Origin: Zygaena filipendulae
Taxonomy: Eukaryota; Arthropoda; Insecta; Lepidoptera; Zygaenidae
DNA length: 64,000 nt
Assembly (NCBI GenBank): GCA_907165275.2
Contig: OU015669.1
Location: 766,501 to 830,500 of the forward strand
Direction: 5' to 3'
The notes under the pieces are model-generated. The model ran no database searches, had not been told where the DNA came from, and saw nothing but the letters and a program-made list of their open reading frames with translations. The number at the start of each line of letters is the position of its first letter. Position 1 is the first letter of the stretch. Shown in pieces: positions 8,761 to 56,083 of this stretch. The translations under genes and the position numbers were made by a program.

Positions 8761-9507
8761 TAAGATCAAACCAGAGATTTTTTGGTAAAGTTTACCCCAT
8801 TCGAGGAAGGCAAAAGAAACTTAGTCCATACAACCAAGTCAGTTGTTTCTTTCTTCTTCTAAGTTATTTACATGGAAATGCATTGGTGAGATGCATTTCG
8901 ATACTTTACCGGGATTTCTGGAAGCAGTTTTTCGTATTTGGACCTTAATGGGATGCCTGTAGGAAGTTAAATAGTAATATGATAACCTCCCAGCAAACAC
9001 CCCATTTCATCTTATTTCACTGTTTCCACACACTGGTTATCACTAATGGATCATTATTATGCAAATTGCAAAATCCACTACGTTCACACAATATTAATCT
9101 TAATTTGTAAAACAAAAGAAATAAAACTGACGTCAATGAGAATAAAACCACTTACGGATGAAACACACGCATCATTTTAATATAACTCATTTTTATTAAG
9201 CTCCTTTTCGAGCAGGCAAACAATTTTAATAATTTTTATGGTATATTTTATTTTAATATAATTATACAGTAGAAGGTAGGGATGCCGATAGAATATTCTC
9301 CACGTACGCGCATACCTACGTAATGTTTATGTTCTCTTTAGAATAATTTGTAAAAATTGAAGGTAGGTGATAATATTATATTCGTCTACTTTGATAGTGC
9401 AAAAATTTGAGTTCCACCTACATAACTGTTGACTCACGGAAATTCTTTTAAAATTCAAATTATTCAATTATTTTATTACGTAAAAACATATAATATTTGT
9501 AAATATC

Positions 9508-30603: not shown

Positions 30604-31496
30604 TATTTTTTGGTCCATACGAGCCAAGGATCGCTTTCGTATTTACATATTACGACTGCGTTTTACATCTCGTTGGGTACCGCGTGTAATGAATATTGAA
30701 CCTTATTGCGTTTTACATTAGGGTGACATTTCATTGCTATATCTTAGCTTGTTACATATCAATGGTTAGAACCTACGGTTGAACAGTTTGCCAATTATTT
30801 TTTGGTTAATTGTAATTTTCGCATAAATTTCTTATTCGCATAGGTATTTGTACTACTTTCATGCAGATTATAATTTAATTTGCATAGGAAACATCGCTTA
30901 CCTATTTTATTATTTCGTTGTCATGGTGATGCCTGGTTGGAATCGTTTCGTATAAGTATTGAGTAGGTGTCTAATATTCATACTTAATATTTTGATTTTT
31001 ATTGGTTTCATACTTTCCAAGGAGAATTTGTATTTTCTTGGATAATAGTATAACCAATACCCGCGTAGTTGGTTGTCGGTCGATTTCTATTTGTTATATA
31101 TAAACAAATATCAAGTCGTAACCGCAGCTAGCTTATATATTTTATTTTGATTTTCTCCGCCGAACGAATTCTGCCCAGGTATAGCTATACAATAGGTACT
31201 TAGGTTTATCTTCATTTCGTTGCCCCGCGTAGGTACATATTTATGTTACACCTACTAAACTAAGTATAATTAAATTAATATTTTATCAGCTTTTGTGTTC
31301 GTATTCTCTCGCACCGAGCATTGTTAAATAACTCGGAATTTATTTTATTTTTAACCCGCACGTAATTTCCTACCACCTATAGGTAATTACGCTATTAATT
31401 GTTTTTTTTATTTAGTTTTATTTTGTACGTATATAATACATTAATATATTCGCATTTTCGTTGTTTCATTGACCTGAGTTTAATTTTCAATTTAAA

Positions 31497-33602
31497 ATGG
31501 AGGATTTAGGTATCAAAATAAAGTTAAACGAAGCAAAACGCGAGCAATATTTTAATCAATTGCAAACGGTCTTCGACCTAATCCCTCTTATACACGAGGA
31601 TGAAATACATCGTCGTAGGTTTTGTACACAAGCCCGTCTCGTCGATTCCTTACGTCGAGATTATATCGAAGCCGTTGATAATATTAACATGTTTAGCTTA
31701 CAAAAGAAGCCTAATTATGTAGTCAATTATCAATCTATCACCTCTTTCGATGAGTTATATTTTGCTGTAAAGGAGGCATTCGAAGAGGTATCCACAAAGC
31801 CTGTTCCGCAGCATATATCAGCTGCGCCCTGTTGTAGTGGGCATGATAAAGAGTCGATTCGTCTTCCGCGTATTCAAATTCCCATGTTCGATGGCGAAAT
31901 TCAGAATTTCCCGTATTTTTATGAAACGTTTAAACGCATCGTTCATAATAATAATAAGTTGACAGATACAGAACGCATTCATTATTTATTAACTCATCTA
32001 TCTGGTAAGGCGAAAAGTGTGGCCGCTGGCGTAGTGCCGTCGGCTGAGAACTATGCTATCGTTTGGAACGCTTTGATAGACAAGTATCATGATCGTCGCG
32101 CGTTGGCTACTTCTTATCTTAATGAATTGTTTTCTTTAAAACCTATTAACGGACCCTCGGCTTCGAATCTCGAAAAGGTTATTGATAAATACACCGCAAA
32201 TATATCTGCATTAAAGCAGCTTCAGATTGAGAATTTAGGCGATTTTGTTTTTGTGTACATGGGGTTGAAATTGTTAGATACGGATACTGCGATAATGTAT
32301 GAGTCATCTATCAGGGGATGCGCAGATATACCGAGTTACGACGGGTTCGTTCGGTTCACCCGCGAGCATGTGAAGGTGCTGCACCGCGCGTCGTCACGCG
32401 TCGGCTCCGGCTCCGGCTCCGGTCACCCGGCCACCCCGCGCGCCCCTCTCCCCGCGCCATCCGCTCGCGCTCCTCAGGTCTTTGTAGCAGCGCAACCTCC
32501 CCTCGACGACGATTCCCAATGTGGACTGTGTCGAGGCCGAAACACGAGTTCGCACATTTATACGTGTAAACGCTTTTTAGAACTCTCACCTTATGATAGG
32601 TTTAATTATATTAAAAATAATCGCGCGTGTATAAATTGTTTAAGTACACGTCACATGTCTTTTAATTGTAAGTCGAATACTTCCTGCCGTAAATGTAAAT
32701 CTAGGCATCATACGTTGTTACATTTTCTAAAGGATTCGACATCCCAGCCGCAGCCACAACCGCCGGCGACGTGCGAGTCGATTGTAGATAGTAACGCTGC
32801 TTCGAGTAACAGTGACGATATTAATAATCGTAATGATGTTAAATTAAATAACCAAGATCGTATCTCAACTGAAAATAAAGTTTCGGATATTTCGCTTTGT
32901 ACTTTGTCATCGCTCCGTGAGTTGCGCTCTTCTACCGAGGTACTCGCGACCGCCAGGGTGCTCGCTGCCGGGCGCTCCGGTCGAGATGTCCTGATCCGGT
33001 GTCTTCTAGACCCAGGCTCTCAAAAACATTATATTACTTCCAAGTGTTGTCATAAGTTGGGACTTAATGTAGATAAGAGCTCCGCGGTCACCATCATGGG
33101 CATAGGCGGCGCCTCTAAAATCGCTAAGGGAGCTGTAAGCGTTAGCTTCCGATCGCGCTTCGGTTCGAGTCCCAAGTATACTGTTTCGGCACTAGTGCTG
33201 AATCAGATCACTGGCCAGTTGCCGACCACTCGCATCGATTGTAGTTTCATGGAACGTTTTCAATCCATACCTCTCGCCGATGACACTTGGGGTACACCGG
33301 GTGAAATTGATCTCTTGTTAGGAGTTGATTTGTTTGCTAAATTGCTTTTATCTGGGAAGGTGGCTAACCCACCCGGTCTTCCTGACGCACTAGAAACCGT
33401 GCTGGGTTATGTTATTTTAGGAAATGTTCCAACCCCCGCACCTCCTTCCACCTCTTTCTCTTATTGTTCTGTCGCGACTTGTGAAGTTAACTCTTTGGTT
33501 CGCAAGTCTCGGGAGGTAGAGGACATAGATAAAAGGCAAACCTATTTAAGTATCAACGATAAGTACTGTGACGCTTTTTGTAATGCGCCAACGTCTAAAT
33601 GA
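31497..33602 (+). CDS. BEL/Pao gag-protease polyprotein (intact, 701 aa)
   Basis: An uninterrupted 701-residue retrotransposon polyprotein. Residues about 125-270 resemble the DUF1759 gag region of Pao elements (RIQIPMFDGEIQNFPYF, then HLSGKAKSVAAGV). A Pro/Ser/Gly-rich linker (about 300-335) precedes a CCHC zinc knuckle, C378-x2-C381-x4-H386-x4-C391, with a second Cys/His cluster C397-x2-C400 / H405 / H409 after it. The aspartic protease domain (DUF1758 type) has its LLDPGSQ motif at 503-509. Start ATG at 31497 follows an 890-bp leader. The ORF ends TGA at the point where the RT linker should begin; the next coding block is in another frame. Confidence 0.88.
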   Translation: MEDLGIKIKLNEAKREQYFNQLQTVFDLIPLIHEDEIHRRRFCTQARLVDSLRRDYIEAVDNINMFSLQKKPNYVVNYQSITSFDELYFAVKEAFEEVSTKPVPQHISAAPCCSGHDKESIRLPRIQIPMFDGEIQNFPYFYETFKRIVHNNNKLTDTERIHYLLTHLSGKAKSVAAGVVPSAENYAIVWNALIDKYHDRRALATSYLNELFSLKPINGPSASNLEKVIDKYTANISALKQLQIENLGDFVFVYMGLKLLDTDTAIMYESSIRGCADIPSYDGFVRFTREHVKVLHRASSRVGSGSGSGHPATPRAPLPAPSARAPQVFVAAQPPLDDDSQCGLCRGRNTSSHIYTCKRFLELSPYDRFNYIKNNRACINCLSTRHMSFNCKSNTSCRKCKSRHHTLLHFLKDSTSQPQPQPPATCESIVDSNAASSNSDDINNRNDVKLNNQDRISTENKVSDISLCTLSSLRELRSSTEVLATARVLAAGRSGRDVLIRCLLDPGSQKHYITSKCCHKLGLNVDKSSAVTIMGIGGASKIAKGAVSVSFRSRFGSSPKYTVSALVLNQITGQLPTTRIDCSFMERFQSIPLADDTWGTPGEIDLLLGVDLFAKLLLSGKVANPPGLPDALETVLGYVILGNVPTPAPPSTSFSYCSVATCEVNSLVRKSREVEDIDKRQTYLSINDKYCDAFCNAPTSK

Positions 33603-37679: not shown

Positions 37680-37757
37680 GCTTAATTATTTGTTTGTTTA
37701 GTTATCACGGCTTCCCGCTGTCTGTCTGTCCCTATGTATGCTTAGATCTTACAACTA
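37680..37757 (+). repeat. lepidopteran repeat split by the 18-kb element, left part
   Basis: CTGTCTGTCTGTCCCTATGT-ATGCTTAGATCTTACAACTA runs into the 18-kb element. The continuation (CCTACGCAACGGATTTTCAT-GCGGTTTT, AATAGATAGAGCGATTCA) resumes at 56084. I recognise the joined string as a common lepidopteran interspersed repeat, which supports a single insertion event. Confidence 0.7.
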
Positions 37758-37769
37758 CACTGGGAAAAA

Positions 37770-39960
37770 TACACGGCTTTTGAACACGGCTACGTTTTGC
37801 GTAGCCGTGCAAACGGTTCTGACAACCGAGTTTGGCAGCCGTGTAAAGAACCGTGTACACGGCTACATGAAACGTAGCCGTGTAAGCGGTTAAGATAGCC
37901 GCTTTAGACGGTTACGTGTACCATGTTCGTAATTTTTTCAGCCGTGTTGAAATCCTAGCCGTGTAAAATTACACGGCTACCTTTTGACTCGGTTGTCGGA
38001 GCGGTGTGCACACAACAAACACGGCCTCGGTAACGTTGTTGACACGGTACGGTGCACCGCGTGCTTATCACGTTAGCCGTGTCATATATTAAACTTGCTA
38101 ACATGGCTGTCGGAGCCGTATAGACACGGTACAGCAGGTCGTGTGCTTATCAAAACTTGGCCACGTTAGCCGTGTCATATAATAAACTTTCTAACACGGC
38201 TGTCGGAGCCGTTCTATAAACGGTACAGCTGGCCGTGTGCATAACATAACTTGTTCCCGTTACCCGTGTCATATATTTAACTTGCAAACACGGCTGTCGA
38301 AGCCGTTTAGACACGATACAGCAGATCGTGTGCTCGTCAAAACTTGGCTATGTTAGCCGTGTCATACAATAAACTTGCTAACACGGCTGTCGGAGCCGTT
38401 CTATAAAGGGTACAGCTGGTTGTGTGCTTATCAAAACCTGGCCACGTTAGCCGTGTCATATATTAAACTTGCTAACACGGCTGTCGGAGCCGTTAAGACA
38501 CGATACAGCAGGTCGTGTGCTTTTCAAACCTTGGCTACGTTAGCCGTGTCATACAATAAACTTGCTAACACGGCTGTCGGAGCCGTTCTATAAAGGGTAC
38601 AGCTGGTTGTGTGCTTATCAAAACCTGGCCACGTTAGCCATGTCATATATTAAACTTGCTAACACGGCTGTCGGAGCCGTTCTGTAAATGGTACAGCTGG
38701 CCGTGTGCAGAACATAACTTGTTTACGTTAGCCATGTCATATAATAAACTTGCAAACACGGCTGTCGAAGCCGTTAAGACACGATACAGCAGGTCGTGTG
38801 CTTTTCAAACTTTGGCTACGTTAGCCGTGTCATACAATAAACTTGCTAACACGGCTGTTGGAGCCGTTCTATAAAGGGTACAGTTGGTTGTGTGCTTATC
38901 AAAACCTGGCCACGTTAGCCGTGTCATATATTAAACTTGCTAACACGGCTGTCGGAGCCGTTCTATAAAGGGTACAGCTGGTTGTGTGCTTATCAAAACC
39001 TGGCCACGTTAGCCGTGTCATATATTAAACTTGCTAACACGGCTGTCTGAACCGTTCTGTAAATGGTACAGCTGGCCGTGTGCAGAACATAACTTGTTTA
39101 CGTTAGCCGTGTAATATATTAAATTTGCTAACACGGCCGTCGGAGCCGTTTGGACACGATACAGCAGGTCTTGTGCTTATCAAAACTTGGCTACGTTAGC
39201 CGTGTCAGAAATGAACCACGCAAACATGGCTGTCGTAGCCGTTATATACCTAAACGGTACAGCGGACCGTGTGCAAAACAAAACTTGTTTACGTTAGCCG
39301 TGTCATTAATTATCTTGCAAATACGGCTGTCGGAGCCGTTTAGACACGATACAGCAGGTCTTGTGCTTATCAAAACTTGGCTACGTTAGCCGTGTCAGAA
39401 ATGAACCACGCAAACATGGCTGTCGTAGCCGTTATATACCTAAACGGTACAGCGGACCGTGTGCAAAACAAAACTTGTTTACGTTAGCCGTGTCATTAAT
39501 TATCTTGCAAACACGGCTGTCGGAGCCGTTTAGACACGATACAGCAGGTCTTGTGCTTATCAAAACTTGGCTACGTTAGCCGTGTCAGAAATGAACCACG
39601 CAAACATGGCTGTCGTAGCCGTTATATACCTAAACGGTACAGCGGACCGTGTGCAAAACAAAACTTGTTTACGTTAGCCGTGTCATTAATTATCTTGCAA
39701 ATACGGCTGTCGGAGCCGTTTAGACACGATACAGCAGGTCGTGCGCTTATCAACACTTGACTACGTTAGCCGTGTCAGAAATGAACCACGCAAACATGGC
39801 TGTCGTAGCCGTTATATACCTAAACGGTACAGCGGACCGTGTGCAAAACAAAACTTGTTTACGTTAGCCGTGTCATTAATTATCTTGCAAACACGGCTGT
39901 CGGAGCCGTTTAGACACGATACAGCAGGTCGTGTGCTTATCAACACTTGGCTACGTTAGC
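37770..39960 (+). repeat. left subterminal array, ~94-bp units in 190-bp dimers
   Basis: Units are built from ACGTTAGCCGTGTCA, AACTTGCTAACACGGCTGTC, GGAGCCGTT and ACAGCNGGNCGTGTGC. Distances between equivalent points are 190 bp for the last four units (39361, 39551, 39741) and 281 bp earlier, so the base unit is about 94 bp with dimer and trimer higher order. The last dimers are nearly identical. Open frames here are repeat artefacts. Confidence 0.9.
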
Positions 39961-40114
39961 CTCTTATGGAATGGCTGTGTGTTAATAACAGCGCCATCTT
40001 TGATTCCAGACTGGAACCACTAGATGGTTTATCTAGGTAAGATCATCATCAGCTAATTTAGCAAGTAGTTTAGGATTAAGCCGACAGAGGGCGTTATAAT
40101 CCGAACCGCTTAGT

Positions 40115-40490
40115 ATGAGCTTTGCAAATAATTATACAAATTTTGCAAATAATTATTACACAAAAGAAGGAATAACACGCCGTTTTTACTGTCTGCAACC
40201 TAACCCTGAAGCCGTTCACATTCCTTCAGTGAACATAATCCTTTTTTGCCACATGAGTGTCTTATCTGATAAATGTGACTCACTGATATCTGATGCATGT
40301 TCAGCTTCAGACATGCAGTCTAAGGAGAGAATCCACCCTAGAAAAAAGCGGCCAAGTGCGGACTCGCCCATGAAGGGTTCCGTAGCAGCAAGTAACATTA
40401 ATATAAAAGTTCTTGTAGTTCGTTGTAACTTTGATCGATGTTTTAATAATATTGTAATTTTTTATTGCGGTTTACGATCTATGACGTATT
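40115..40490. other. unique-looking stretch, no supported gene
   Basis: A 125-codon open frame (40115-40492) runs here between the left array and a foldback repeat. Its composition (IHPRKKRPSADSPMKG) gives no family clue and no splice partner was found. Confidence 0.2.
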
Positions 40491-40528
40491 AAAAAAACTA
40501 CTTACTAGATCTCGTTCAAACCTAGACC

Positions 40529-41664
40529 GATACCGATTTAATCCAAAAGACAAAAACACACGTAATTATTATTGGTTTGTGCTACCACTGATCGGTTTGA
40601 ATTCGGTGACAAGCCCGCTGGTGTCTGCCCACTTGGGTCGTTCTGCTTACGAAGAGCTGGTGGCGGGAGTCGACTGAGCCCATCTACCCCCTCCATATTC
40701 ATACCTACCTATCAGTGGTAGCACAAACCAATAATAATATTACGTGTGTTTTTGTCTTTTGGATTAAATTGGTATTTTGTTATTTATAGCTTTTTATTTT
40801 TAGCTTTTTTAATTTGTGTTTTTGAAAGTCGGTTTTAATGTTTTTGTTAAAATTTTGTTTATTTCTCGATTTTAAGTGACATAGTTCGCAATTTCTCTAA
40901 GTTACAATAGCCTAATGTCAACTGCTCATCGCCTTTTACAAAATATTGCCTTTCCCGACGCAGGGACGTTAATTATTGAGGAGTTCTCCTAGTACATCAC
41001 TAACAGTTCCACTTCACCATATACATTGTGACGAGCATAAATTGTTTAGAACCCATATTAAAGGTAACGATTCGGAACCTGTGAAATACCTATTATTGAG
41101 TAGTTCCGATAACCATCTGTGGTCTTCATCATCAGTTCCACTTCTTCAAATTTTGCTTTCCGAAAGCAAATACACGATTTACTATAAAAATACAAAAATC
41201 GCTATAGGTGTACCTATAATTTTTGAAGAGTTCCCTCAATTACTCCAAGATTCCACCATCAGATCTTGACTATCCCCTTTTAAACAAAAAAACAATTTTC
41301 GAAATCGCTCCAATCAGAACGTACTATTGTTGAATAGTTCCGATGACCATCTGTGGTCTTCATCATCAGTTCCACTTCTTCAAATTTTGCTTTCCAAAAG
41401 CAAATGAACGATTTACTATCAAAAATACCCAAATCGCTATAGGTGTGCCTATAATTTTTGATGAGTTCCCTCGATTTCTCCAAAATTTCATCATCAGATC
41501 CCGACTTGGTGGCAATGGGACCTAATTGGGAGTATACCCTTTCAAACAAAAAAAGAATTTTCCAAATTGGACCAACCGCCTTCGAGTACTCGGTGAACAT
41601 ACATAAAAAAAAACATACATACAATCGAACATAGAACCTCCTCCCTTTTGGAAGTCGGTTAAAA
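40529..41664 (+). repeat. AACCGACTTCC foldback repeat, copy 1
   Basis: Left block 40529-40790 is a palindrome: ATTGGTTTGTGCTACCACTG..GATCGGTTT mirrors ATCAGTGGTAGCACAAACCA. The right end is CTCCCTTTTGGAAGTCGGTT. Between them lie inverse-repeating GATGATGAAGACCACAGATG-type modules. Related copies are 48268-49848 (inverted) and 63040-64000. Open frames with a RRFYVRLYV motif read through it and are not genes. Confidence 0.65.
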
Positions 41665-41669
41665 AGAAA

Positions 41670-42310
41670 CGCATCGCACCGCGCCATGTCGCATCACGCA
41701 TCCGCCACCACCGGGCGGATGCGTATTGCGTGGCGCGTGGCGCGGCTCGCGGCCCAGCCGCCCAGCCAATGGCAGTCGTTGAATGCTAGGTACCTACTCA
41801 CTCTCTCGCAAAAACGACAATACAATCGACGTGGACAACAGAATAGATTATTCAATAATGAATTAACTATAGGTAATATGTACAGAGAAAAATTCTAATA
41901 TTTAAAAATTTCATGCACCATGTTAGGTTAGCATCGTAGGTTAGTAACGTAAGCATCCATCAAAAAATTCAATGGCAATTGGCAATATTAAAATTTGAAA
42001 CAATGTATTTATAGACTATATTATAATAAATTTTTTTAAACGGTCAAGTTGTCTTTCAGAGACTGAACACACGTAGGGACATGTTTATTTATTAAAAATA
42101 TTCCTCATAAATGTTATTTTTGAGATATTTAAAGCTATATCGTAATTCGTAGCCCGTAAAGAACATGTTCAAACTTGTTCCCAATGTTCCCGCATTTCTA
42201 CTTGAATGGGTGTGTATATATGTATGTATATGTATATCTATAGTATAATATATATGTAATAATATGTGTAGTATATACCACGTTTGTTTGGTTTCCACGA
42301 CACAAGCTTA
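41670..42310. other. nothing recognised
   Basis: Interior of the 18-kb element. It includes a short GC-rich stretch (41690-41780) and AT-rich DNA with TATATGTA runs. Confidence 0.3.
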
Positions 42311-42317
42311 TAGCTTA

Positions 42318-42375
42318 GTGTGCTGTGTGGGATCAAGTACATCTGTGTGTTGTGAAGTGGATTATTATTATAAAA
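42318..42375 (+). repeat. SINE 3' fragment
   Basis: GGGATCAAGTACATCTGTG-TGTTGTGAAGTGGATTATTA matches the 3' part of the tRNA-derived SINE at 14385-14515. Confidence 0.4.
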
Positions 42376-42479
42376 AAAAATGAAGGTCACAAGTCGCAAA
42401 AGCACAACTGCTGACTGCAGAGTGCACACTGTAGTGCAGACTCAAGATTCAAGACTGCTCAACCAAAAATTTATAAAAA

Positions 42480-43270
42480 GTAGGTAGGTAGGTACCTACC
42501 ATCCATGTAGGTAGGTACTTTTAATCTCGGAACTACCTCGGGAACTCCGAAATTAAAGCGGATGATACCCGCGGGGAACAGCTAGTATTCCTCATAAATA
42601 CATCAATAGAAGTCTTCTGGAGGCCGAAACGTCCAGTAGGTACCTACCCAAACGGTGACTACCTAGTATACCTACCTACCTACGGAATTTTTATACCGGT
42701 AGCGTCCAGTAGACACACGTTGTCTACAGACGAAACAGATTGGTAATTTTTCTACGTCGACGTGACGTCGATGCATACGAAGTAAAAAAGGTCGGCCTCT
42801 CAGACGAAAGAGGTCGGCCTTTTACCCACCTATTTTACTGGCTTTTTATACCCCAATGAGCCCCAGTGAAAAAAATCCGTAACTTTTGAATGACGCAATT
42901 TAATTTGCAATGACGACTGATAAAAAAAACAAATGAAATAACTAATTTGTATACTGTTCAATTTCTTTTCTAATAGGTAGTAGGTATTCATTGAGGTCAT
43001 TGAGTAGTAAATCAATGATTGAGGTAGGTAGGTATTCATTTGTTCAAAACTTTACGAAAAATCAATAGTTTTGTAGCAAATTTATTTAAAATTTCATTTC
43101 ACATCTATATTATAATATATAGATAGGTAAGTAGGTACCTACCTCCCTAGTACCTACTATAATAAAAGAGTAGAATCCACGATTAAGTACCTTCAGCAGC
43201 GTAGTAGGTAGGTACCATGTAGGTACCTACCTAAGTCGGTAGTTACCTATTACACTTGGCTAATTTTGTC
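42480..43270. repeat. GGTAGGTACCTACC-rich tract
   Basis: Many palindromic TAGGTACCTACC / GTAGGTAGGTACC motifs cluster here (42480-42520, 42640-42690, 43130-43260). A CTAGCTG-family fragment in inverse orientation is at 42520-42587. No gene is seen. Confidence 0.5.
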
Positions 43271-43429
43271 TCCTAAGTCATTCAGAAGCAAATTTGAAGC
43301 TTCTGATCATACCTACTATCCTAACTTTTAGTTACTGAATGAAGCGCGGCGCGACGGAGTCGAAGGAATACGAGGATGGCTTCAGTATTGTATATTGTAG
43401 TATCCAAAAAATTGTCCTTTGCGGCCAAA

Positions 43430-43680
43430 AATTCTTTCACTAAAAAGAAGCTACAGTGGTCCTGAGTGACATAGGGTACTTTTGTCCCATCCCGGAATTC
43501 CCGCGGAAACTCCGGAGTTTGTAATATCTGAATCTACTGCACCGATTTTGAAAATTCTTTCACTTATAAGAAACTAAAGTAATCCTGAGTGACACAGTGA
43601 CACACCCTTCATCCCGGAACTCCCACGAGAACTCCGAAACCACCGCGGGTGAAACCGCGGGGGTCAGCTAGTTTTTATAT
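43430..43680 (-). repeat. CTAGCTG-family repeat with reiterated module (inverted)
   Basis: On the minus strand it starts ACTAGCTGACCCCCGCGGTT and has two copies of the AAGTGAAAGAATTTT / CAGGATTACTTTAG module, like the copy at 636-1060. A forward fragment of the family follows at 43775-43880. Confidence 0.55.
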
Positions 43681-44082
43681 AAACTCACTAACACTTGAAA
43701 GCCCTCATTTTTCTTCAGGAAAATTTCGTCATTTTTGTCCCAAAGATAGGGCATAATATCTTTATAGTATAGTACTAACTGTGCCCCGCGGCCTCACCCG
43801 CGTCAATTCCGGAGTTCCCGCGGGAATTCCGAGACAAAAAGTAAAGCACTAAGTTACTCTTTATAACATCAGCTATCTGCCAGTGATAGTCTAAGTTTAT
43901 TACTATTTACTAGGTAAGTATCCAATCTAAGATAACAAGATCAGAATTAAATGTTAGTGATACCTTACTAATTAATCGACTAGTGGACGATATTCATAGT
44001 TTATATAGAAAAATTAATTCCTTAGTAGGCTAGTTAGTAGGTACCTAGGTAGGTACATTGCAGTGAGTCGATAGAAAGTAAA

Positions 44083-44205
44083 ATGGCTACCGATAATTTT
44101 GATTTAAAAACGGCTCTTGTCTTATTTCCCATTATGACAGGAGTAGAGAATATTACAAAACAATTAATCAATGGGATCAAGTTAGGTATACGATTCTATG
44201 ATTAA
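44083..44205 (+). other. short ATG open frame inside the 18-kb element
   Basis: ATG at about 44083 opens 40 codons (MATDNFDLKTALVLFPIMTG, then ENITKQLINGIKLG) and stops. The context looks protein-like but no splice donor or family was identified. It may be a decayed exon of the element's lost gene set. Confidence 0.2.
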
Positions 44206-44639
44206 TATTGCATCTAAACCTCTATTAATTGAATTTGCTTGAAAAACGCGACTTTAAGCCAGTGCAAAACTTCGTTTAACCTCTTAGTCCAAGTATTGTT
44301 CAGTTTATTGCCTGGTTGGGGATATGAAAAAATATCTTATCCCGAGAAAATCAGATGTCGCAATCCAGGCACAGTTGCAACGAGCAACGCAGGGGCACAA
44401 AAGTGTGCAATCATTTGGTTTAGAATTAGAGGAACTTTTTGTTAATTATATATACTTAGTCTATACTCTATAGTCCAAAGTAACGATGATGAAAATAAGT
44501 ACGAAATATTGCGTCCAATTAATGGTTCTTTGCCGCCGGCCGCGAATCAAAGCTCACGACATAGCAGACACGGACATGATTTACGCAGTAGTACCAACTA
44601 CCACGGTGTAGTAGGTACGTAGGTAGGTATATAGGAACT

Positions 44640-44945
44640 TCCGGATCTGGCTCGCAAGAGCGGCGGTGATTTTGTCATGCCGCGCTGTGATTGGTGGACA
44701 ACCGACGCGCGACGCCACGCGCTGAGAGTAGGTACCATTGACCGCCGCGCGCCGGCGCGGAAGGAACAGCGAACAACACTCTAGCGCTGACCGTTATTGC
44801 GCAAAATCAATGCGCAGAAGTCAAAAAATAGGATTCACAGGGGGGCTAGAGGGACGAGGGGTGTGCGTGCGTAGCGCCGGTTGGCAAGCTCGTCGTATTC
44901 CGTCCCCCGCCCCGATACGACGCTCCACGGACTTCTGACTGTACA
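44640..44945. other. GC-rich CpG-dense tract upstream of the TE gene
   Basis: It stands out from its AT-rich surroundings, with CGCCACGCGCTGAG, GCGCGCCGGCGCGGA and TAGCGCCGGTTGGC. It lies 1.6 kb upstream of the first coding exon of the 331-residue gene and could be its promoter region, but nothing proves it. Confidence 0.25.
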
Positions 44946-45059
44946 GTCATGGTCTAAAGTGTATTGTTATTGCCGTTCATTATTATTGGTTTTATTAAGT
45001 TTGAGGTTCTTTGTTATTGTTGGGTTTTTTATTAGTCTATTTTTAGTAGATAGTGAATA

Positions 45060-46500
45060 TATCTAAAAAAAAAAATATTTTGAAAAGACATGCACAAAAA
45101 TGGTGTATGACGTGCATTGTTTGCGCGCGCGACAGTAGCTTATATCCTCCACATTACGCTCAGTGATAGACTTACTATTCATTTAAATATATTCTAAAAT
45201 TACTTGGTTAAATTAATTAACCCATGGAAAGCGCCACCCTCATTGGTCCGCGCACCGTGACCCTCGGAACTACCAAACAAATTTATACACCCACTCTCCG
45301 AACAAATTTATATTATGTTTTATATGTCTATGTGTAGGTAGTTTAATGACGATAAATAAAAAATAAAAACTTAAAGTAAGAAATAAAGTGTGATTTTGAA
45401 TATATTTTATTTACCTACTTACCAAAGATGAGGTCCTTTTTCATATCCGTCACTGGTTTACACTAAATTTATAGCCACATACACATTTCACATACACTAA
45501 GATGTAACTGGCCAGTATAGGCGTCGATTTTATGTAATTACACCATCAAAAAACTAATAATGACTTCACAACAAACATTTATTGACAAAATACGTGCCGG
45601 CTAGCCGTGAAACAGCCATACCTAGCGTTACCGTGGTTAAACAAAAACAAAAATGTAGGTTATTTAGAAGATTTAACACCAATATAATTTATTTAAAATT
45701 ATATCATGAGTAAATTTGCTACAAAACAATTGATTTTTCACATAGTTTTGAACAAATGAATATTAGAAAACAAATAAAGTATTTCATTTGTTTTTTGTTT
45801 GACAGCCGTAAACAAATTATTGCGTCATTAAAAGGTACTGACTTTTTTTACTGAAAATTTTGTCATGCGGCTAAATTAAATATTAAAACTAAAAACCTTA
45901 TTTAATTTCCATCAATTTGATCATGGGCCAATAATTAGTCCATGATTTGATATATAACACTTGATATAAACACTAACCGATTACTTATATTTCGACATAT
46001 TTATGCGAGACGGCGCGAGCCGCTCACTAACCGAACACAGACTACAGAGACTGATTGTCAAAATCGCGGGTGAATTTCGCCCGCACTACCTTAACTTTTT
46101 TAATTCTGGCCAGTATGTGCGTTATGGAATATGGATTGGGAAAAAAATACATATTTTGTATTGTGACCAGCCAATAAAACTTTTACAGTACTGTCAACCA
46201 ATATGGAACGCCGTAAAAAAATAAGAAAACCGCCATTGAGTTAGTGCCAACTGTGGGGACTAGGACATTTCAGAGTTAGTCCATACTGTAGGGACTAGGA
46301 CATTTCAGAGGTAAACTTATAATTATTATATTAGGTGCGCGACTGTACCCATGCGCAGCTATCCCTTCCACATTTCGCTCACTAGTCACTTTCGTGCTAA
46401 TACTTGTACATCACATTGCCTAACGTCGAGTGCGCTGCTTACGTCTAAAAATTAGATGCTGTGATATTTTCCCGGTAAATAGAGTGTTTGTGTCCTGAAT
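45060..46500. other. nothing firmly recognised
   Basis: AT-rich DNA upstream of the TE gene. At 46245-46310 a 38-bp direct repeat containing GGGACTAGGACATTTCAGAG occurs twice. This stretch would include any 5' UTR. Confidence 0.3.
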
Positions 46501-46518
46501 GAAACCTATGACGGCATC

Positions 46519-49500
46519 ATGAGGTGAGTAGGTACTTAATTTTAATTGTAATACTCATGTGTGCAGTAATAGTGGAGCATTATCAAACTGCGAACCCGTT
46601 TGGAGGTTAGCGCATCCCCCTAAAGGAAAAAACGATATTTACTTGATATACCATTGTTTTGCAAACAAATATTGAATTGAAGCATAAACACGTTGTGCCA
46701 AACGTCGGTAGGTAGGTGCTACCTACATATTTAATAAAGTAGACAGTTTTAAAAAAAGATGGCGCCTCGCCTTTTTTACGCGTCCTAGTTAGTGCAAAAG
46801 TTCGCGCCACTTTGTAACGGCTCCATGGTACTGTAAAAAAATATGATAGATTTGTTTTGTTTCTAGTTTGTGTCACGAATTAAGCGAACTGTTGAACGCG
46901 TGGGGTTTCGAGAAATACGCCGAAGCATTTCTTGGTAAGTTGGAATATATCTTACACAAAATTATATTTACATTTTATGCCTATTTTGATGCGTTCTATG
47001 TTCTATATAATAAAAGACATGATGAAACATTAAAAAAAAACTGAATCCATGCCATAGCTGTACTTTGACCAATAAAAAATGAATAATTTTTAAATCAATT
47101 GAAGTGTGATAAAAAAAGTGATAAGACATCAAGTTAGGCCGAGTTCCAATAATCAAACCACCGAAACCAACAACATTCCGTACCAACAGTTACCTAAGAC
47201 ACATTTTCTAGGGGTAATCTGTCAAACAAAATCTTATTTAGGTACCTACCTATATATAAAAATTTCGTGTCACGATGTATGTTCGCGATAAACTCCGAAA
47301 CTACCTACTGAACTGAACTGAACTAAAAAAAATATATAATAAATACCTAGGTTAAATGTGAGGGTGGCAACATATGAAAAAGCTTCAAAAAATCTATCCA
47401 GTGCAATTATGAGTAGGTACGTACCTACCAATGTCTGTATAGAATGATTGAATCCAATTGCTTACTCTTATTTCATGTTAGGCAAAAGGCAGGCTATTTG
47501 GCGAGAGACCAGAGGGTTAGTAAACAAGAAGACCTCATCCGTCACTACAGCAGAGACATCTGACGATTCAGAGGAAATTGGTACAGGGCGACGTGGCCTT
47601 AAAAGGAAACTATCACAGCGGCCATTACAGGACGAAAAACTTGATCAGGACCAAAACTTAGAAGGTAGGTATACAGTATAGTTCATATACAATTTTAAAT
47701 GTGTACGTAGATCCAATAGGGCGGATCCACACCGGACGAGTGGCTCGGCCGAACATGGCTCGCCCTAACATGCGCGCTGAACCGAGTGTAGATGTGGTGG
47801 CTATAGGTGTGGATCCGCGTGATGACAGGGCTGTGAACTAAGAGGGCTGATAGAGCACCTCATATGATATCCATATTAATTAAGGTGATGCTTACAGACG
47901 CTAAACATCTGTGTTGTGTTTATATTATGAAATAAATATTTATAATTATAATTAATAATACCTATATAATTTGTATATATATATAATTTATAATGAAATA
48001 AACTTCACTATTACTTATACTTGAACGTTTTCCACAGAGGAGCTGAAAATTAACGGCGACATTATCACAATAGCCAAGTACCAGGGAGTAGAATCTTCAT
48101 CCATACTAGAAACAGCTTGGAAAGCCACGCGGTCACTTCGCAAGCGGTACTTAATGACTGTTTCAACTTCACAGTACTTGAAAAAGTTTCCTTTGCTTCG
48201 TTTGGAGAGAGTTGGTCCACACCTGGTAAGAGATTGGCACATTTGTGAATCATATTATATCTATTTTTTTAACCGACTTCCAAAAAGGAGGAGGTTCTAT
48301 GTTCGATTGTATGTTCACCGACTACTCGAAGACGGTTGGACCGATTTGGAAAATTCTTTTTTTGTTTGAAAGGGTTTACTCCCAATTAGGTCCCATTGCC
48401 ACCAAGTCGGGATCTGATGATGGGATCTTGGAGAAATCGAGGGAACTCTTCAAAAATTATAGGCACACCTATAGCAATTTGGGTATTTTTTATAGTAAAT
48501 CGTTCATTTGCTTTCGGAAAGCAAAATTTGAAGAAGTGGAACTGATGATGAAGACCACAGATGCTCATCAGAACTACTCAACAATAATACGTATTTCAGG
48601 GGTTCTAGTTAGAGCGATTTGGAAAATTGTTTTTTTTTGTTTGAAAGGGGATACTTCCGAATTGGTCACATTGTCATCAAGTCAGGATCTGATGGTGGGA
48701 TCTTGGAGAAATCGAGGGAACTCTTCAAAATTTATAGGCACACCTATGGCGATTTGGGTATTTTTTATAGTAAATCGTTTATTTGCTTTTGGAAAGTAAG
48801 ATTTGAAGAAGTGGAACTGATGATGAAGACCGCAGATGGTCATCGGAACTACTAAATAATAGGTATTTCACAAATTCCGATTCGTTAACTTTAATGTGGT
48901 TTCTAAATAATTTATGTTCGTCACAATGTATATGGTGAAGTGGAACTGATGGTGTTGTACCAGCAGAACTCCTCAAAAATTAACGTCCCTACATCGGGAA
49001 AAGCAATATTTTGTAAAAGGTTATGAGCAGTTGACAGTAGGCTATTGTAACTTAGATAAATTACAAACCGACTCACTAAAAAGCAAGAAATAAACAAATT
49101 TTTAACAAAAAAATTTAAACTGACTTCCAAAAACACAAATCTAAAAAAGCTAAAAATAAAAAGCTAAAAATAACAAAATACCGATTTAATCCAAAAGACA
49201 AAAACATACGTAATATTATTGGTTTGTGCTAACACTGATCGGTATGAAGTCGGTAACAAGCCAAATATGGAGGGAGTAGATGGGCTAAGTCAACTCCCGC
49301 AACCAGCTCTCCGTGAGCAGAACAACCCAAGTGGGCAGACACCAGCGGGCTTGTCACCGAATTCAAACCGATCAGTGGTAGCACAAACCAATAATATTAC
49401 GTATGTTTTTGTCTTTTGGAAAAATTAATTTATTATTGCTAGTGTGTATGGTTTGTGTGCGCCCGTTCGTCTTGCGTGGTATTTGTAAGTCACTATGGCC

Positions 49501-51651
49501 TTGACTGAAAACCAGCGTCGTGAGTGTTCCCACACTCACGACATAATGCTGAGTCAAGGACCATTTTGAGCGTGGAGACACACCACACAAGTGACAAAAT
49601 ATATTATTATTTCTTGTTTAGTTTTATTTCGTTTTTCATTGTTTTGTTTTTATTTTTTTTATTTTTTTCTTCTTTATTTCTTTATTTTTTTTGTTATTCT
49701 TTAATAGTCTTCATTTGTGTTGTTCTGTATGTGTTCATTTGTGTTGTGTTTCTTCTTGCTTAAATAAATCTTTCTTTATCTTTATCTTTAAATCGGTATT
49801 TTGTTATTTTTAGCTTTTTTAGATTTGTGTTTTTGGAAGTCGGTTTAATTACAACCTTTTATTTAACTTGCACATCACATCAATCACATCAATTGCTCAA
49901 TAGGCAGCAGCAACTTACACAGTGGGAACTAAGTCCGACCAGTGAAGCACGTAACCCTTGCAACGCGAGTCCGACTCGCACTTGGCCGGTTTTTAAATTT
50001 TAACAAAATTAACTTGTTTATTTTTGTTTCACAGATAAACATTGACTTCACAAATCTAAATTATAATATTAGCCCCTCAGCACTGTACACTGGGTTAAGA
50101 CAAATCTCAGACCTGATAGAAAACAGAGCTTCCGCAAAGCAAACACTATCGAAGCCCTTACGGGCTCAGCAACAAAGAATCCACGATCTTCCAAAAGGTA
50201 ATGGATATTGTTTTGAACCGACTTCAAAAAAAGAAAGTTCTTAATTTGGTTATATATTTTTATCTTTTTGTTTGTTACCTCAGAACTGCGTCATTTATAA
50301 ACTGTTATTAAAGTTTTTAGATTTTCGCGTTTTGAGCACATTATATTATGTAAATTACGCGGGACTTGAATGCGATGTTTTTTATTACCTTTTTTGCCTG
50401 ACGTTTCGGCTGAGTTGCATCACGCCGTGGTCACAGGCTGACTGAAGCATTGCGGCGTCGATAGCGAGCCGCGCGAGCAGATTCCTCATCTACCCTCACT
50501 GGATGTTCTTTTTTATTAGATGCACTTTTAAGGTCCCTGCACACTACACTCACTCGGTCCGCATTCACCGGTTCCGGACGGCCGCAACGATTTTTTCTTT
50601 TTTGAATTATAGGATCCCATGTCGTTGGCAACCGAGTGAGTGTAGTGTGCAGGGATCTTAAAAGTGCACCTAATAAAAAAGAACATCCAGTGAGGGTAGA
50701 TGAAGAATCTGCTCGCGCGGCTCGCTATGGACGCCGCAATGCTTTAGTCAGCCTGTGACCACGGCGTGATGCAACTCAGCCGAAACGTCAGGCAAAGAAG
50801 GTAATAAAAAACATCGCGTTCAAGTCCCGCGTAATTTACATAATACTAGCTGTCCCCCGCGATTTCACCCGCGGTAATTTCGGAGTTCCCGCGGGAATTC
50901 CGGGATAAAAACTATCCTATCTTTTAAGTTGGACCATATTATAAATGGTTGCAAAATTTTATCAAAATCCGTTCAGTAGTTTCGGAGTCCATCGCGGACA
51001 AATAACGTGACACGTGATTTATATATATTAGATTTATATTTACATAATATTTATAAACTGATTTAGATTTTTTTTTATTTGAAAGAATAATACTCCCGAG
51101 GTGATCCCACTGTCACCAAGTCAGGATCTGATGATGGGATCCCAGGGAAATTGAGGGCAACCCTCAAATTTTTTAGGCACTTTTCTAAAGTTATTTAAGT
51201 ATTTGCGTCTGGTGTTTAGTGGACATTCGCTTGATTAATTAACATTTAATTCTATTTTTCAGATACTGAGTCGTCGTCGTTGTCGTTCGTCGGGGGAAGA
51301 ACCGGTGTTCGAACTAAAGCCTCGCGGATCGACGCAGCCATCCGCTTCATTTTAGTTGCCAAAACTCGCAGCGAGGGCGAGGCTCATTTACAGGAATTCA
51401 GAAAGGAAGCTTTAAACAAGTCAGCACCTGGTATTGGAGTGCAGCCTCTAGTTATTGCTATAGGTGAGAACTTGGCGAACATTAATAGCGCATTCGTCGT
51501 TGTAGATGACGTTTGGTTATGCTGTCTTAATATTCTGGAAGCTGTAGACCTATGTTTTAAAAGTTTCTATGTTTTTAACCTAAGATACCCAATACAGTGT
51601 GAGCACATTTGGCAGCCGATTACAGATTTTCGCACATGGGTAGTGGAATAA
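46519..51651 (+). CDS. TE-borne six-exon gene, 331-residue protein of unknown function
   Basis: Exons are 46519-46523 (ATGAG, donor GTGAGT), 46867-46934 (acceptor TTTCTAG, donor GTAAGT), 47482-47664, 48038-48225, 50035-50197 and 51263-51651 (TAA). Every junction has AG/GT borders and matching phase, and the total is 996 nt. The start was chosen because ATGAG gives the phase needed by exon 2 (protein MSLCHELSELLNAWGF..). That N-terminus is SAM-like in spacing. Exon 3 is Ser/Thr/charged (TTAETSDDSEEIGTGRRG, then KRKLSQRP, a possible nuclear signal). The C-terminus (FVVVDDVWLCCLNILEAVDL, then CFKSFYVFNLRYP) resembles a domain I recall in uncharacterised animal proteins linked to transposons. Exon 3 (183 nt, phase 1-1) could be skipped without a frame change. 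AATAAA overlaps the stop at 51650. No enzyme motif is visible. Confidence 0.65.
48268..49848 (-). repeat. AACCGACTTCC foldback repeat, copy 2, with nested retroposon
   Basis: This inverted copy lies in the intron between exons 4 and 5 of the TE gene, from AACCGACTTCCAAAAAGGAG to TTTTTGGAAGTCGGTT. The palindromic block (GGTTTGTGCTAACACTGATC..GTGGTAGCACAAACC) is at 49205-49395. At about 49425-49788 it is interrupted by an unrelated insert ending TAAATAAATC-TTTCTTTATCTTTATC, typical of an RTE-like or SINE retroposon tail. Confidence 0.65.
50318..50848. repeat. foldback repeat with hammerhead-like motif, copy A
   Basis: Long inverse arms run from AATTACGCGGGACTTGAATG to CGTTCAAGTCCCGCGTAATT and share CTGACGTTTCGGCTGAGTTG, CATCACGCCGTGGTCACAGG, CTACCCTCACTGGATGTTCT and TGCACTTTTAAGGTCCCTGC. 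The right arm has TGATG (50767) and GAAACGTC (50782-50789), spaced as in hammerhead-type Penelope repeat motifs, although the core is not canonical. Confidence 0.7.
50850..51030 (+). repeat. CTAGCTG/CCGCGGG repeat, duplicated at 52803-52998
   Basis: It starts ACTAGCTGTCCCCCGCGATT and contains TTCGGAGTTCCCGCGGGAA and AATCCGTTCAGTAGTTTCGG. It was copied together with the exon duplication. Confidence 0.65.
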
Positions 51652-51660
51652 TAAACAAAA

Positions 51661-53460
51661 ACATCAATTGCTCAATAGGCAGCAGCAACTTACACAGTGG
51701 GAACTAAGTCCGACCAGTGAAGCACGTAACCCTTGCAACGCGAGTCCGACTCGCACTTGGCCGGTTTTTATATTTTAACAAAATTAACTTGTTTATTTTT
51801 GTTTCACAGATAAACATTGACTTCACAAATCTAAATTATAATATTAGCCCCTCAGCACTGTACACTGGGTTAAGACAAATCTCGGATCTGATAGAAAACA
51901 GAGCTTCCGCAAAGCTGCAAACACTATCGAAGCCCTTACGGGCTCAGCAACAAAGAATCCACGCTCTTTCAAAAGGTAATGGATATTGTTTTGAACCGAC
52001 TTCAAAAAAAGAAAGTTCTTAATTCTTAAATATTTTTATCTATGTTTGTTACCTCAGAACTGCGTCATTTATAAACTGTTATTAAAGTTTTTAGATTTTC
52101 GCGTTTTGAGCACATTATATTATGTAAATTACGCGGGACTTGAACGCGATGTTTTTTATTACCTTTTTTGCCTGACGTTTCGGCTGAATTGCATCACGCC
52201 GTGGTCACAGGCTGACTGAAGCATTGCGGCGTCGATAGCGAGCCGCGCGAGCAGATTCCTCATCTACCCTCACTGGATGTTCTTTTTTATTAGATGCACT
52301 TTTAAGGTCCCTGCACACTACACTCACTCGGTCCGCATTCACCGGTTCCGGACGGCCGCAACGATTTTTTGTTTTTTGAATTATAGGATCCCATGTCGTT
52401 GGCAACCTATATCCGTCATCTCGATTGAAAGTTTTGTGTTTCTTTATTTCAACCGCTTCACGCACTATCCTCGCGTAGTAGTGACGTTCAGTTGAGAGAA
52501 CCTTCAAACGATGGAACTCAATCCAGTGGTTCAGATCCGGTTGCAAGATGTGTTCCGCATCATTACGGCCGTTCCGAACCGGTGAATGCGGACCGAGTGA
52601 GTGTAGTGTGCAGGGACCTTAAAAGTGCATCTAATAAAAAAGAACATCCAGTGAGGGTAGATGAAGAATCATCTCGCGCGGCTCGCTATCGACGCCGCAA
52701 TGCTTTAGTCAGCCTGTGACCACGGCGTGATGCAACTCAGCCGAAACGTCAGCCAAAAAAGGTAATAAAAAACATCGCGTTCAAGTCCAGCGTAATTTAC
52801 ATAATACTAGCTGTCCCCCGCGATTTCACCCGCGGTAATTTCGGAGTTCCCGCGAGAATTCCGGGATAAAAACTATCCTATCTTTTAAGTTGGACCATAT
52901 TATAAATGGTTGCAAAATTTTATCAAAATCCGTTCAGTAGTTTCGGAGTCCATCGCGGACAAACAACGTGACACGTGATTTATATATATTAGATTTATAA
53001 TTTACATAATATTTATAAACTGATTTAGATTTTTTTTTATTTGAAAGAATAATACTCCCGAGGTGATCCCACTGTCACCAAGTCAGGATCTGATGATGGG
53101 ATCCCAGGGAAATTGAGGGCAACCCTCAAATTTTTTAGGCACTTTTCTAAAGTTATTTAAGTATTTGCGTCTGGTGTTTAGTGGACATTCGCTTGATTAA
53201 TTAACATTTAATTCTATTTTTCAGATACTGAGTCGTCGTCGTTGTCGTTCGTCGGGGGAAGAACCGGTGTTCGAACTAAAGCCTCGCGGATCGACGCAGC
53301 CATCCGCTTCATTTTCGTTGCCAAAACTCGCTGCGAGGTCGAGGCTCATTTACAGGATCGTACAGGATCGGATCCCGTGGTCGATCAGGCAAAGTTATGT
53401 GGGCCCACACGGCACACGCTTGTCAAGCTTTGGAAAACCGGCAGGACGTCCTTAAGTTAG
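51661..53460 (+). pseudogene. tandem copy of TE-gene exons 5-6 with a changed 3' end (unit B)
   Basis: The exon-5 copy is 51810-51975 (one extra Leu codon, same phase, same splice sites). The exon-6 copy starts at 53225 after TTTTTCAG and is near-identical to 51263 onward. At 53357, after CATTTACAGGA, it switches to unrelated sequence and stops at TAG 53458-53460, replacing the conserved C-terminal domain by about 34 new residues. It could serve as an alternative 3' end, or be a non-functional duplicate. Confidence 0.6.
52120..52805. repeat. foldback repeat, copy B, carrying a Penelope-like fragment
   Basis: It has the same arms as copy A but retains about 187 bp more centre. On the minus strand 52546-52376 encodes HWIEFHRLKVLSTERHYY, REAVEIKKHKTFNRDDG and LPTTWDP, resembling the GIY-YIG endonuclease end of Penelope-like elements. 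This suggests the foldback derives from paired termini of such an element. Confidence 0.6.
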
Positions 53461-53529
53461 TGTGACTTAGAAACGCATCAGCTAATAAAACTAACGTACC
53501 ACAGCGTCCTGCAGGTTTGACAACGAGAT

Positions 53530-53985
53530 CCTCTAGTACACAGTTTCATTAAATTTGATCCATGTTTACTAAATCTTCTTGTGTACAGGAAATATAATTG
53601 GATTAAAATTGTCTATAAATTTAAAAATTGGATTAGAATTGTGTATTGAATAAATTATTTGAATTTGTATAAATTTGAAACCATTTAAGTAATTTTGGAA
53701 AATAAATGAACAGTATCTTAAAATAAATATGTTAATTATTTACTAATCATATCATTCTTCACCAAATAGGAAAATCAGTAATTTTAAGAGATTTCTTGTA
53801 TTCTTTTAGTGTTTATCTTGTATAATTCAACTGCAGCTTTCTTTCGCAGGTGTTCAAGTATATCTGACTCTTCTACCTTTATGCTATACAGCTGGTGATC
53901 TTGAGACATTCGTGTCAGTACGGCTACTTATTATTGCCTAAGTAGCCATATTGATGCAGCTGAGATCACTGTTTTGCAACGGAGA
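53530..53985. other. spacer between exon duplication and right array
   Basis: AT-rich, no coding signal seen. The array motif ACGGCT first appears at about 53918. Confidence 0.35.
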
Positions 53986-53989
53986 CCTC

Positions 53990-56060
53990 AACCGTGTTAC
54001 GCGGCTCCTCCAGCGGCGTAGGGACGTACAGGGACGGCTGGGGTAGCCGTGCTCCTGCGTCCATGCGCAGATGGCGGAGCCGTGTGACGCGGTGTGCGCT
54101 AGCCGTACAAAACGGTTGTCTCAACCGCGTCACCGGCTCCACCAGCTGTATAGGGACTTAGAAAGACGGCTGGGATAGCCGTGCTGACGTGGCTGAGGCA
54201 ACCGTTTTACACGGCCACTTCAAACCGCGTCACATGGCTGCGCCAGCTGCGTAAATACGGCTGGAATAGCCATGTTGACGTGGCTGAGGCAACCGTTTTA
54301 CACGGCCACGTCAGACCGCGTCACACGGCTACGCCAGCTGCGTAGGGACGTAGGGAGACGGCTGGGACAGCCATGTTGACGTGGCTGAGGCAACCGTTTT
54401 ACACGGCCACTTCTGACCGCGTCACACGGCTACGCCAGCTGCGTAGGGACGTAGGGAGACGGCTGGGATAGCCATGTTGACGTGGCTGAGGCAACCGTTT
54501 TACACGGCCACGTCAGACCGCGTCACACGGCTACGCCAGCTGCGTAGGGACGTAGGGAGACGGCTGGGATAGCCATGTTGACGTGGCTGAGGCAACCGTT
54601 TTACACGGCCACTTCAGACCGCGTCACACGGCTACGCCAGCTGCGTAGGGACGTAGGGAGACGGCTGGGACAGCCATGTTGACGTGGCTGAGGCAACCGT
54701 TTTACACGGCCACTTCTGACCGCGTCACACGGCTACGCCAGCTGCGTAGGGACGTAGGGAGACGGCTGGGATAGCCATGTTGACGTGGCTGAGGCAACCG
54801 TTTTACACGGCCACTTCAGACCGCGTCACACGGCTACGCCAGCTGCGTAGGGACGTAGGGAGACGGCTGGGACAGCCATGTTGACGTGGCTGAGGCAACC
54901 GTTTTACACGGCCACTTCTGACCGCGTCACACGGCTACGCCAGCTGCGTAGGGACGTAGGGAGACGGCTGGGATAGCCATGTTGATGTGGCTGAGGCAAC
55001 CGTTTTACACGGCCATTTCAGACCGCGTCACACGGCTAAGCCAGCTGCGTAGGGACGTAGGGAGACGGCTGGGATAGCCATGTTGACGTGGCTGAGGCAA
55101 CCGTTTTACACGACCACTTCAGACCGCGTCACACGGCTACGCCAGCTGCGTAGGGACGTCGCGAGACGGCTGGGATAGCCATGTTGACGTGGCTGAGGCA
55201 ACCGTTTTACACAGCCACTCCAGACCGCGTCACACGGCTACGCCAGCTGCGTAAGAACGTAGCGAGACGGCTGGGATAGCCATGTTGACGTGGCTGAGGC
55301 AACCGTTTTACACGGTCACTCCAGACCGCGTCACACGGCTACGCTAGCTGCGTAAGGTCGTAGCGCGAGACGGCTGGGATAGCCATGTTGACGTAGTTGA
55401 GGCAACCGTTTTACACGGCCACTCCAGACCGCGTCACACGGCTACGCCAGCTGCGCATGAACATAGGGAGACAGCTGGAACAGCCGCGTTGACATGGCTC
55501 AGACAGCCGTTCACACGGTCACATCAAACCGCGTCACACGGCTTAACCAACGGTGTCATTAGGTAGGAAAACGGCTGAACTAGCCGTGTCGATATGGATG
55601 AGGTAGCCCTTTCACACGGCTACTCCAGCCATGTTGGCTGTAACCGTGTGTCTGATCTAGCCGTGTCTGTTTATAGCCGTGTTAAAAAATTTACACGCCT
55701 GACAAATTGACACGGCTGCAACCGCAGTACCGTGTGCAAATCTAGCCGTGTATGATAATAGCCGTGTTGAAAAATTGAGACACGGCTGATAAATTGACAC
55801 GGCTGACAAGATTGACACGGCTGCAACCGCAGTACCGTGTGCAAATCTAGCCGTGTATGATAATAGCCGTGTTGAAAAATTGAGACACGGCTGATAAATT
55901 GACACGGCTGACAAGATTGACACGGCTGCAACCGCAGTACCGTGTGCAAATTAGCCGTGTGTCCACCGTAGCCGTTTCAGCGTCACACGGCAAATGTTAC
56001 CGTGTTGACGCGGCTGCAACCGTAGTACCGGGTTTACACGGCTGTGGATAGCCGATAAAT
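53990..56060 (+). repeat. right subterminal array, 101-bp units
   Basis: About 15 units contain TACGCCAGCTGCGTAGGGAC, GGAGACGGCTGGGATAGCCA, GACGTGGCTGAGGCAACCGT and TTTACACGGCCA. The period is 101 bp (54431 to 54532). Toward the terminus (55640-56000) the unit changes to another form holding ACACGGCTGCAACCGCAGTA and ATCTAGCCGTGTATGATAAT. It shares ACACGGCT / AGCCGTGT with the left array. Confidence 0.9.
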
Positions 56061-56083
56061 CGACCCTTTTTTTTCCCAGTGTA

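Follow-up and report, generated by a model that had tools for sequence, protein, structure and literature searches.

A long block with satellite-like ends in the Zygaena filipendulae genome, probably a transposase-less copy of a giant CACTA/CMC-type transposon with a spliced accessory gene

A block of 18.3 kb in the genome of the moth Zygaena filipendulae combines short inverted ends, long arrays of tandem repeats and one spliced gene, which raises the question of whether it moved as a single unit and, if so, what kind of element it is. The window analysed here is a stretch of 64,000 nucleotides from contig OU015669.1 (positions 766,501 to 830,500, forward strand), in which the block occupies positions 37758 to 56081. 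We find that the block very probably belongs to a family of giant CACTA/CMC-type cut-and-paste DNA transposons, as a non-autonomous member with an internal deletion. The assignment to the CMC group is based on the termini, the target-site duplication and the catalytic pattern of a transposase that is encoded by longer sister copies elsewhere in the genome.

The block begins and ends with a perfect 12-bp inverted repeat, CACTGGGAAAAA, which we call the L end (37758-37769, forward strand) and the R end (56070-56081, reverse strand). Both are bordered by the dinucleotide TA (37756-37757 and 56082-56083), as described in the original prediction, which was made from the letters of the window. There is no other site with zero or one mismatch in the window, and the significance of the pair within the window is weak (7 of 100 shuffled sequences contain at least two matches when one mismatch is allowed). 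We searched the whole genome to which the window belongs (365.9 Mb) and found the 12-mer at 56 + 50 places (32 + 36 for the reversed control). The positions of 100 of these 106 places were listed, and the number of facing pairs is therefore a lower bound: at least 28 pairs face each other at distances of 15,979-29,431 bp, where 0.11 are expected. All 28 have the termini CACTGGG..CCCAGTG, by construction of the search and as confirmed on reading, and all 28 are flanked by equal dinucleotides (TA in 23, CA in 3, TG in 2). Because CA and TG are not palindromic, the duplication is genuine and 2 bp long, a length within the 2-4 bp of CACTA/CMC elements; the duplicated dinucleotide is of the YR (pyrimidine-purine) type, mostly TA. 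For the first 26 bases of the L end, the genome has 30 exact matches and one with three mismatches (controls: 0). Most of the exact L ends (27/30) lie within the pairs, the three extra ones being on C22, C50 and C54. An L-type and an R-type end occur together in 27 of the 28 pairs.

The original prediction also described a host repeat broken at 37757 that resumes at 56084. This is correct, because uninterrupted copies of the repeat match the joined flanks of the window copy across the junction (79% for L011, 76% for L010). When 14 joined flanks were compared with 358 kb of genome sequence, uninterrupted repeats matched two of them, that of the window copy and that of C1, the latter with 89% identity over 227 columns to a repeat lying in the window itself (56381-56165). 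The claim that the block moved as one unit is thus upheld by the facing pairs, their equal flanks and the uninterrupted host repeats at two insertion sites.

Half of the 28 pairs (14, window copy included) were read through in full and the other 14 were examined at 80 bp per end. In every full copy, both ends carry a motif-dense array and exons of an accessory gene are present, exon 2 not being visible in C18. Ten of the 14, including the window copy, form subfamily A, and C4, C5b and C7b form subfamily B. The copies are very similar: the nine other A copies show 0-8 mismatches per block to the window copy in three blocks totalling ~4.45 kb, the middle block also having 4-42 gap columns, and C4 differs from C5b at 7 of 22,877 positions. 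The A copies are without, among other parts, the regions of C5b at 9.35-11.06 kb and 15.09-20.25 kb; subfamily A has thereby neither the transposase nor two of the accessory exons, while both ends are retained. Among the 28 pairs, the transposase is intact in six and none was seen in 20. The window copy has the same ends as the coding copy and is missing the inner part with the transposase, as a non-autonomous derivative should; the shorter A form would have arisen from the long form by deletion. The remaining full copy, C18 (L032-L034), spans 22,088 bp and has equal TA flanks, R-type ends on both sides and inverted arms of ~6 kb (98.7% identical over 5.7 kb). Either the element can move with two R ends, or conversion altered one of its ends once it had inserted. 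At the level of sequence, the copies establish that the block is mobile as a unit, that it was amplified recently, and that the family has coding and transposase-less forms and paired genes.

No transposase had been seen in the block by the original prediction, which leaned towards CACTA/CMC, could not match the element to a known family and proposed to look for longer copies with a transposase. For the window copy, a six-frame Pfam scan of the 18.3 kb gave no domain at the curated cut-off. Two weak matches, to Tudor-knot and DUF2677, were below the cut-off and were dismissed. The longer copies exist: six of them, including the three B copies, encode identical, intact transposases of 863 aa that belong to the suspected group, so the element can now be placed as CACTA/CMC-type. 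This group has been defined by a DDE transposase with C(2)C and H(3-4)H between the second D and the E (PMC12730594, from the accessible part of the text). The corresponding D-D-CxxC-HxxxH-E pattern, present in the six sister copies and not in the window copy, is invariant in all 52 rows of an alignment (A1) of the protein (P0002) with 51 of its 72 matches, the 21 left out being mostly shorter or fused models; the search for these relatives scored only the 7995 candidates with most words in common. The fold of the transposase is predicted to be RAG1-like, with 9-14% identity in structural alignments to RAG1, RAG-like and Transib recombinases, in a comparison in which families missing from the match list were not taken as absent. 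The C-terminus, residues 722-854 of the protein encoded at L024 5343-7931 (reverse strand), resembles BAH chromatin-reader folds, and a BAH-like C-terminal domain is predicted for the transposase family. Further open frames with 31-38% identity to the transposase are found in the same genome (G000) at C42:197329, C3:5492332, C22:9370451, C31:411751, C20:3928478, C22:469357 and C2:9553530. They represent other families of the same kind.

Several observations weigh against this identification. The 12-mer by itself is found at only 106 places against 68 for its reversed control. The comparison of insertion sites concerns paralogous copies of a repeat, not an empty allele from another individual. 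The two R-type ends of C18 are not predicted by a simple model with one L and one R end, and C7a and C28 hold a truncated exon 6 only. The duplications are of 2 bp, against 3 bp described for plant elements. Finally, the 863-aa transposase itself has no match to Transposase_21, and this family is matched at E <= 0.1 in only 8 of the 52 aligned rows (best E 1.1e-6, 28.5 bits for a cut-off of 28.6).

The gene of the window copy was correctly announced as a single spliced gene. It lies on the forward strand and has six exons, five GT..AG introns and a single open frame of 331 aa: exon 1 (ATGAG, 46519-46523), exon 2 (46867-46934), exon 3 (47482-47664), exon 4 (48038-48225), exon 5 (50035-50197) and exon 6 with the stop (51263-51651), which is shorter than in the transposase-bearing B copies. 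Exon 5 and part of exon 6 are present twice, owing to an internal tandem duplication of 1.5-1.7 kb. Its first copy spans approximately 49886-51395 and its second 51661-53357 (both forward strand, 97.6-98.2% identical), the latter with an extra exon 5 (51810-51975) and a truncated exon 6 (53225-53357); C7a and C28 have this segment in single copy. The 331-aa product has no match in Pfam, NCBIfam, PDB or among full-length proteins. Exon 6 alone as a query retrieved one relative of 72 aa and none among viral contigs, and its single-sequence fold was poor (pLDDT 50.9) and was not used. The intron between exons 5 and 6 also contains an inverted repeat of ~500 bp (50344-50845, 88% self-complementary), with related copies in 52118-52806, which is likely a nested foldback element.

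The full-length version of the gene is found in subfamily B. In C5b it has eight exons and encodes 623 aa; the exons of C4 are open with one substitution relative to C5b, and exons 2-8 of C7b are identical to those of C5b. The protein matches SAM_1 at residues 6-62 (E 1.2e-6, 29.2 bits for a cut-off of 23); SAM families are the only ones matched at E <= 1, and no enzymatic domain was found. Exon 2 of the window copy corresponds to the first half of this SAM domain, the exon for the second half and the following one being absent, with the frame nevertheless open. In all three B copies the full-length gene lies directly upstream of the transposase; in C5b its stop (15602) is 44 bp upstream of the transposase ATG (15647). 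We compared the accessory protein with 72 proteins (all P ids except P0002 and P0003). Besides P0001, it matches five of them (best E 4e-12 to 0.001), from Aphis craccivora (P0047 and P0033), Ignelater luminosus (P0045), Ceutorhynchus assimilis (P0068) and Holothuria leucospilota (P0066, SAM part only). In all five of these gene models, some of which are fused or partial and all of which come from the transposase search, the accessory part comes first and the transposase part second. A second family in Z. filipendulae, at C42, has an open transposase 38% identical to that of the B copies, immediately preceded by an accessory-like exon (35%, E 1.6e-17). Since the gene order is the same in five animal gene models and at C42, the accessory gene appears to be an old partner of the transposase rather than a chance passenger. 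Between subfamilies, there are 4 substitutions at 439 coding sites, 20 at 749 noncoding sites of the same blocks and 36 at 1926 upstream sites, which is only suggestive of constraint on the gene.

The original prediction had placed two arrays of over 2 kb just inside the ends. This holds for the motif-dense end regions, of ~2.2 kb each, and not for the strict tandem arrays, which are of 1.9 and 1.3 kb. On the left (forward strand), a subterminal region (37770-38069) with dense non-tandem motifs in both orientations is followed by the L array (38070-39961), of ~10 copies of a 190-bp unit with 29 exact motifs. On the right, a degenerate inner edge (53900-54256, forward strand, 25.2 motifs per kb) precedes the R array (54257-55543, forward strand), of 12.7 copies of a 101-bp unit in an alternating higher-order pattern, and then a subterminal region (55544-56069, reverse strand) with 17 exact motifs and 2.6 copies of a 105-bp unit (55687-55960). 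The two arrays have different sequences, the 20 best matches listed from a comparison of the end regions being all of 20 bp or less, and have one 8-base motif in common. This motif, ACACGGCT/AGCCGTGT, occurs in 68 exact copies inside the element (37 left, 31 right), in both orientations, and is absent from the other ~60 kb of the window. When one mismatch is allowed, the five end blocks each have 25-45 motifs per kb and the three other blocks 0.4-0.5. Folded as single strands, the two termini are much more stable than shuffled sequences (z -7.7 for 37758-38037, -5.8 for 55802-56081), and the L subterminal region has a strong hairpin potential. A 39-base piece of the R unit is found at 349 places in the genome (control: 0), and the 100 listed all lie within 21 of the 28 pairs. 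None of the listed places stands alone; arrays occurring alone with their own ends had been named beforehand as speaking against a single element.

How could such a long element move? We tentatively propose an animal CACTA lineage with scaffolded movement of very long DNA. By analogy with other CACTA elements, the transposase of the long copies would process the CAC..GTG termini in trans, by RAG1-like chemistry. The ACACGGCT motifs, amplified to kilobase arrays, may be binding sites for the N-terminal zinc fingers of the transposase, for the accessory protein, or for both, so that the satellite-like arrays would serve as landing platforms. SAM domains can be expected from their chemistry to self-associate; loaded arrays might then stick together as a polymer and gather ends separated by 16-29 kb in a single complex. 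The predicted BAH-like domain could steer insertion to a chromatin state. Such a platform would let transposase-less copies outnumber coding ones (20 versus 6 of the 28 pairs) and might perhaps allow the R/R pairing of C18.

It is quite possible, though we do not favour it, that the arrays are instead neutral satellites, grown by unequal exchange of motif-bearing end sequence, and that the outer ~300 bp suffice for transposition. Unequal exchange is expected to leave an identity gradient like the one seen in the R array, where the seven inner units are 98-100% like the consensus and identity decreases to 93% towards the terminus. The length of the L array also differs among copies (~10 units in the window copy and C21, 8.1 in C2, 9.1 in C5b), which fits with function as well as with neutral growth, and the non-tandem terminal 312 bp at the L end already reach 38.5 motifs per kb, a density equal to that of the array. 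Yet the same 8-mer has been kept in both unrelated units, and motif-dense ends are found in all 14 full copies.

The accessory protein could also have a role other than pairing the ends. That it is an anti-silencing or transcription-regulating factor is an alternative we regard as possible, if doubtful. The second proteins of plant CACTA elements regulate and de-repress their own element. TET/JBP genes, found in fungal EnSpm and other DNA transposons, have been proposed to help in escaping silencing (PMC12730594), but the Zygaena protein matches SAM families rather than any enzymatic domain. We consider it improbable that the spliced gene was captured from the host and travels as a passenger, in a Pack-CACTA-like manner, with no role in movement. 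Intron-bearing genes within non-autonomous elements are often captures, and the window version is devoid of half of the SAM domain. Against this reading, the gene immediately precedes the transposase in the three B copies, and accessory-like segments lie ahead of the transposase in the five animal gene models and at C42. The reading of the block as two independent satellites beside a gene, with inverted ends by chance, fits the dissimilar arrays and the modest significance of the ends in the window alone, but is already contradicted, and practically eliminated, by the facing pairs with equal flanks, the joint occurrence of L and R ends, the confinement of the listed R units to pairs and the common motif absent from the rest of the window.

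The window contains other features. A repeat of ~1 kb is present three times (40542-41665, 48266-49420 and 63072-63998), two of them nested in the element in opposite orientation. Outside the element, there is an open frame of 709 aa (31473-33599, forward strand) with DUF1759 and a weak aspartyl-protease match, resembling a retroelement gag-like gene, a minisatellite of ~760 bp with 14/35-bp units (21457-22217), and host gene exons at 2540-2986 and 9484-9831 with matches to ubiquitin carboxyl-terminal hydrolase and, below the cut-off, C19orf12-like proteins.

These copies represent a very young animal CACTA system within one genome, with intact coding copies, many transposase-less derivatives and fixed ends and target sites. 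With them, one can ask by experiment how cut-and-paste elements of more than 15 kb still move, what purpose long subterminal arrays serve and which role the second CACTA gene has in animals. The predicted RAG1-like transposase with its BAH-like domain also bears on the origin of the RAG recombinase. At least 28 pairs of 16-29 kb are of note because the efficacy of transposition is reported to drop significantly above 6 kb of cargo (PMC6431247, in the part of the text available).

Known systems share parts of this organisation; the published ones are compared here from the accessible parts of their descriptions. A literature search, with Repbase and subscription papers outside its reach, returned nothing on a SAM-domain partner gene or a BAH-like domain in CACTA elements. 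A gapped 20-base pattern was found at 1 place in a viral and 2 places in a bacterial collection, about what is estimated by chance, and the pattern of the host flank was not found in viral contigs. RAG1, RAG-like and Transib proteins share the RAG1-like catalytic fold predicted for the sister-copy transposase and differ in the low identity noted above, in the duplication and in the N-terminal zinc fingers and BAH-like C-terminus found here. Transib and RAG duplications are of 5 bp, against 2 bp in this family. The fungal EnSpm-like elements called ESTA have a RAG1-like transposase and TA duplications, as here, and differ in their fungal hosts and TET/JBP genes (PMC12730594; compared by description only). 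Among animals, the TRC elements (SmTRC1 of Schistosoma, and those of Tribolium and Aedes, the latter of 9.2 kb) have 2-bp duplications, a tandem-repeat region, Transposase_21 and multiple spliced transcripts (PMC1636069). They resemble the Zygaena family in the 2-bp duplications and the tandem repeats, whereas their termini begin with CCC instead of CACTG, and neither a SAM gene nor arrays at both ends are described for them in the text available. The animal CMC elements ENS1_Cis and CMC-NA_1/2 have invariable 5'-CAC..GTG-3' ends and 2-bp duplications (PMC6004678), both also found here, although the CMC-NA pair is miniature in comparison with 16-29 kb. Plant CACTA/EnSpm elements are alike in their CAC..GTG termini, in the subterminal repeats, direct and inverted, that lie close together over several hundred bp, in having a transposase and a second protein, and in the Transposase_21 matches seen among the relatives of the Zygaena transposase (8/52). 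They differ by the 3-bp duplication, whereas the Zygaena family has 2 bp, arrays of motif-bearing units at both ends and a SAM-domain second protein. The enlarged CACTA elements of the red alga Chondrus crispus (16-20 kb, 4-5 open reading frames) are of the same size class, and the available text makes no mention of subterminal arrays in them (PMC6431247). In Chenopodium quinoa, a CACTA element of 16.5 kb has a satellite array near its 3' end (PMC8978399), and therefore neither the size nor the arrays of the Zygaena element are unprecedented; subterminal repeats together with a second gene are typical of CACTA.

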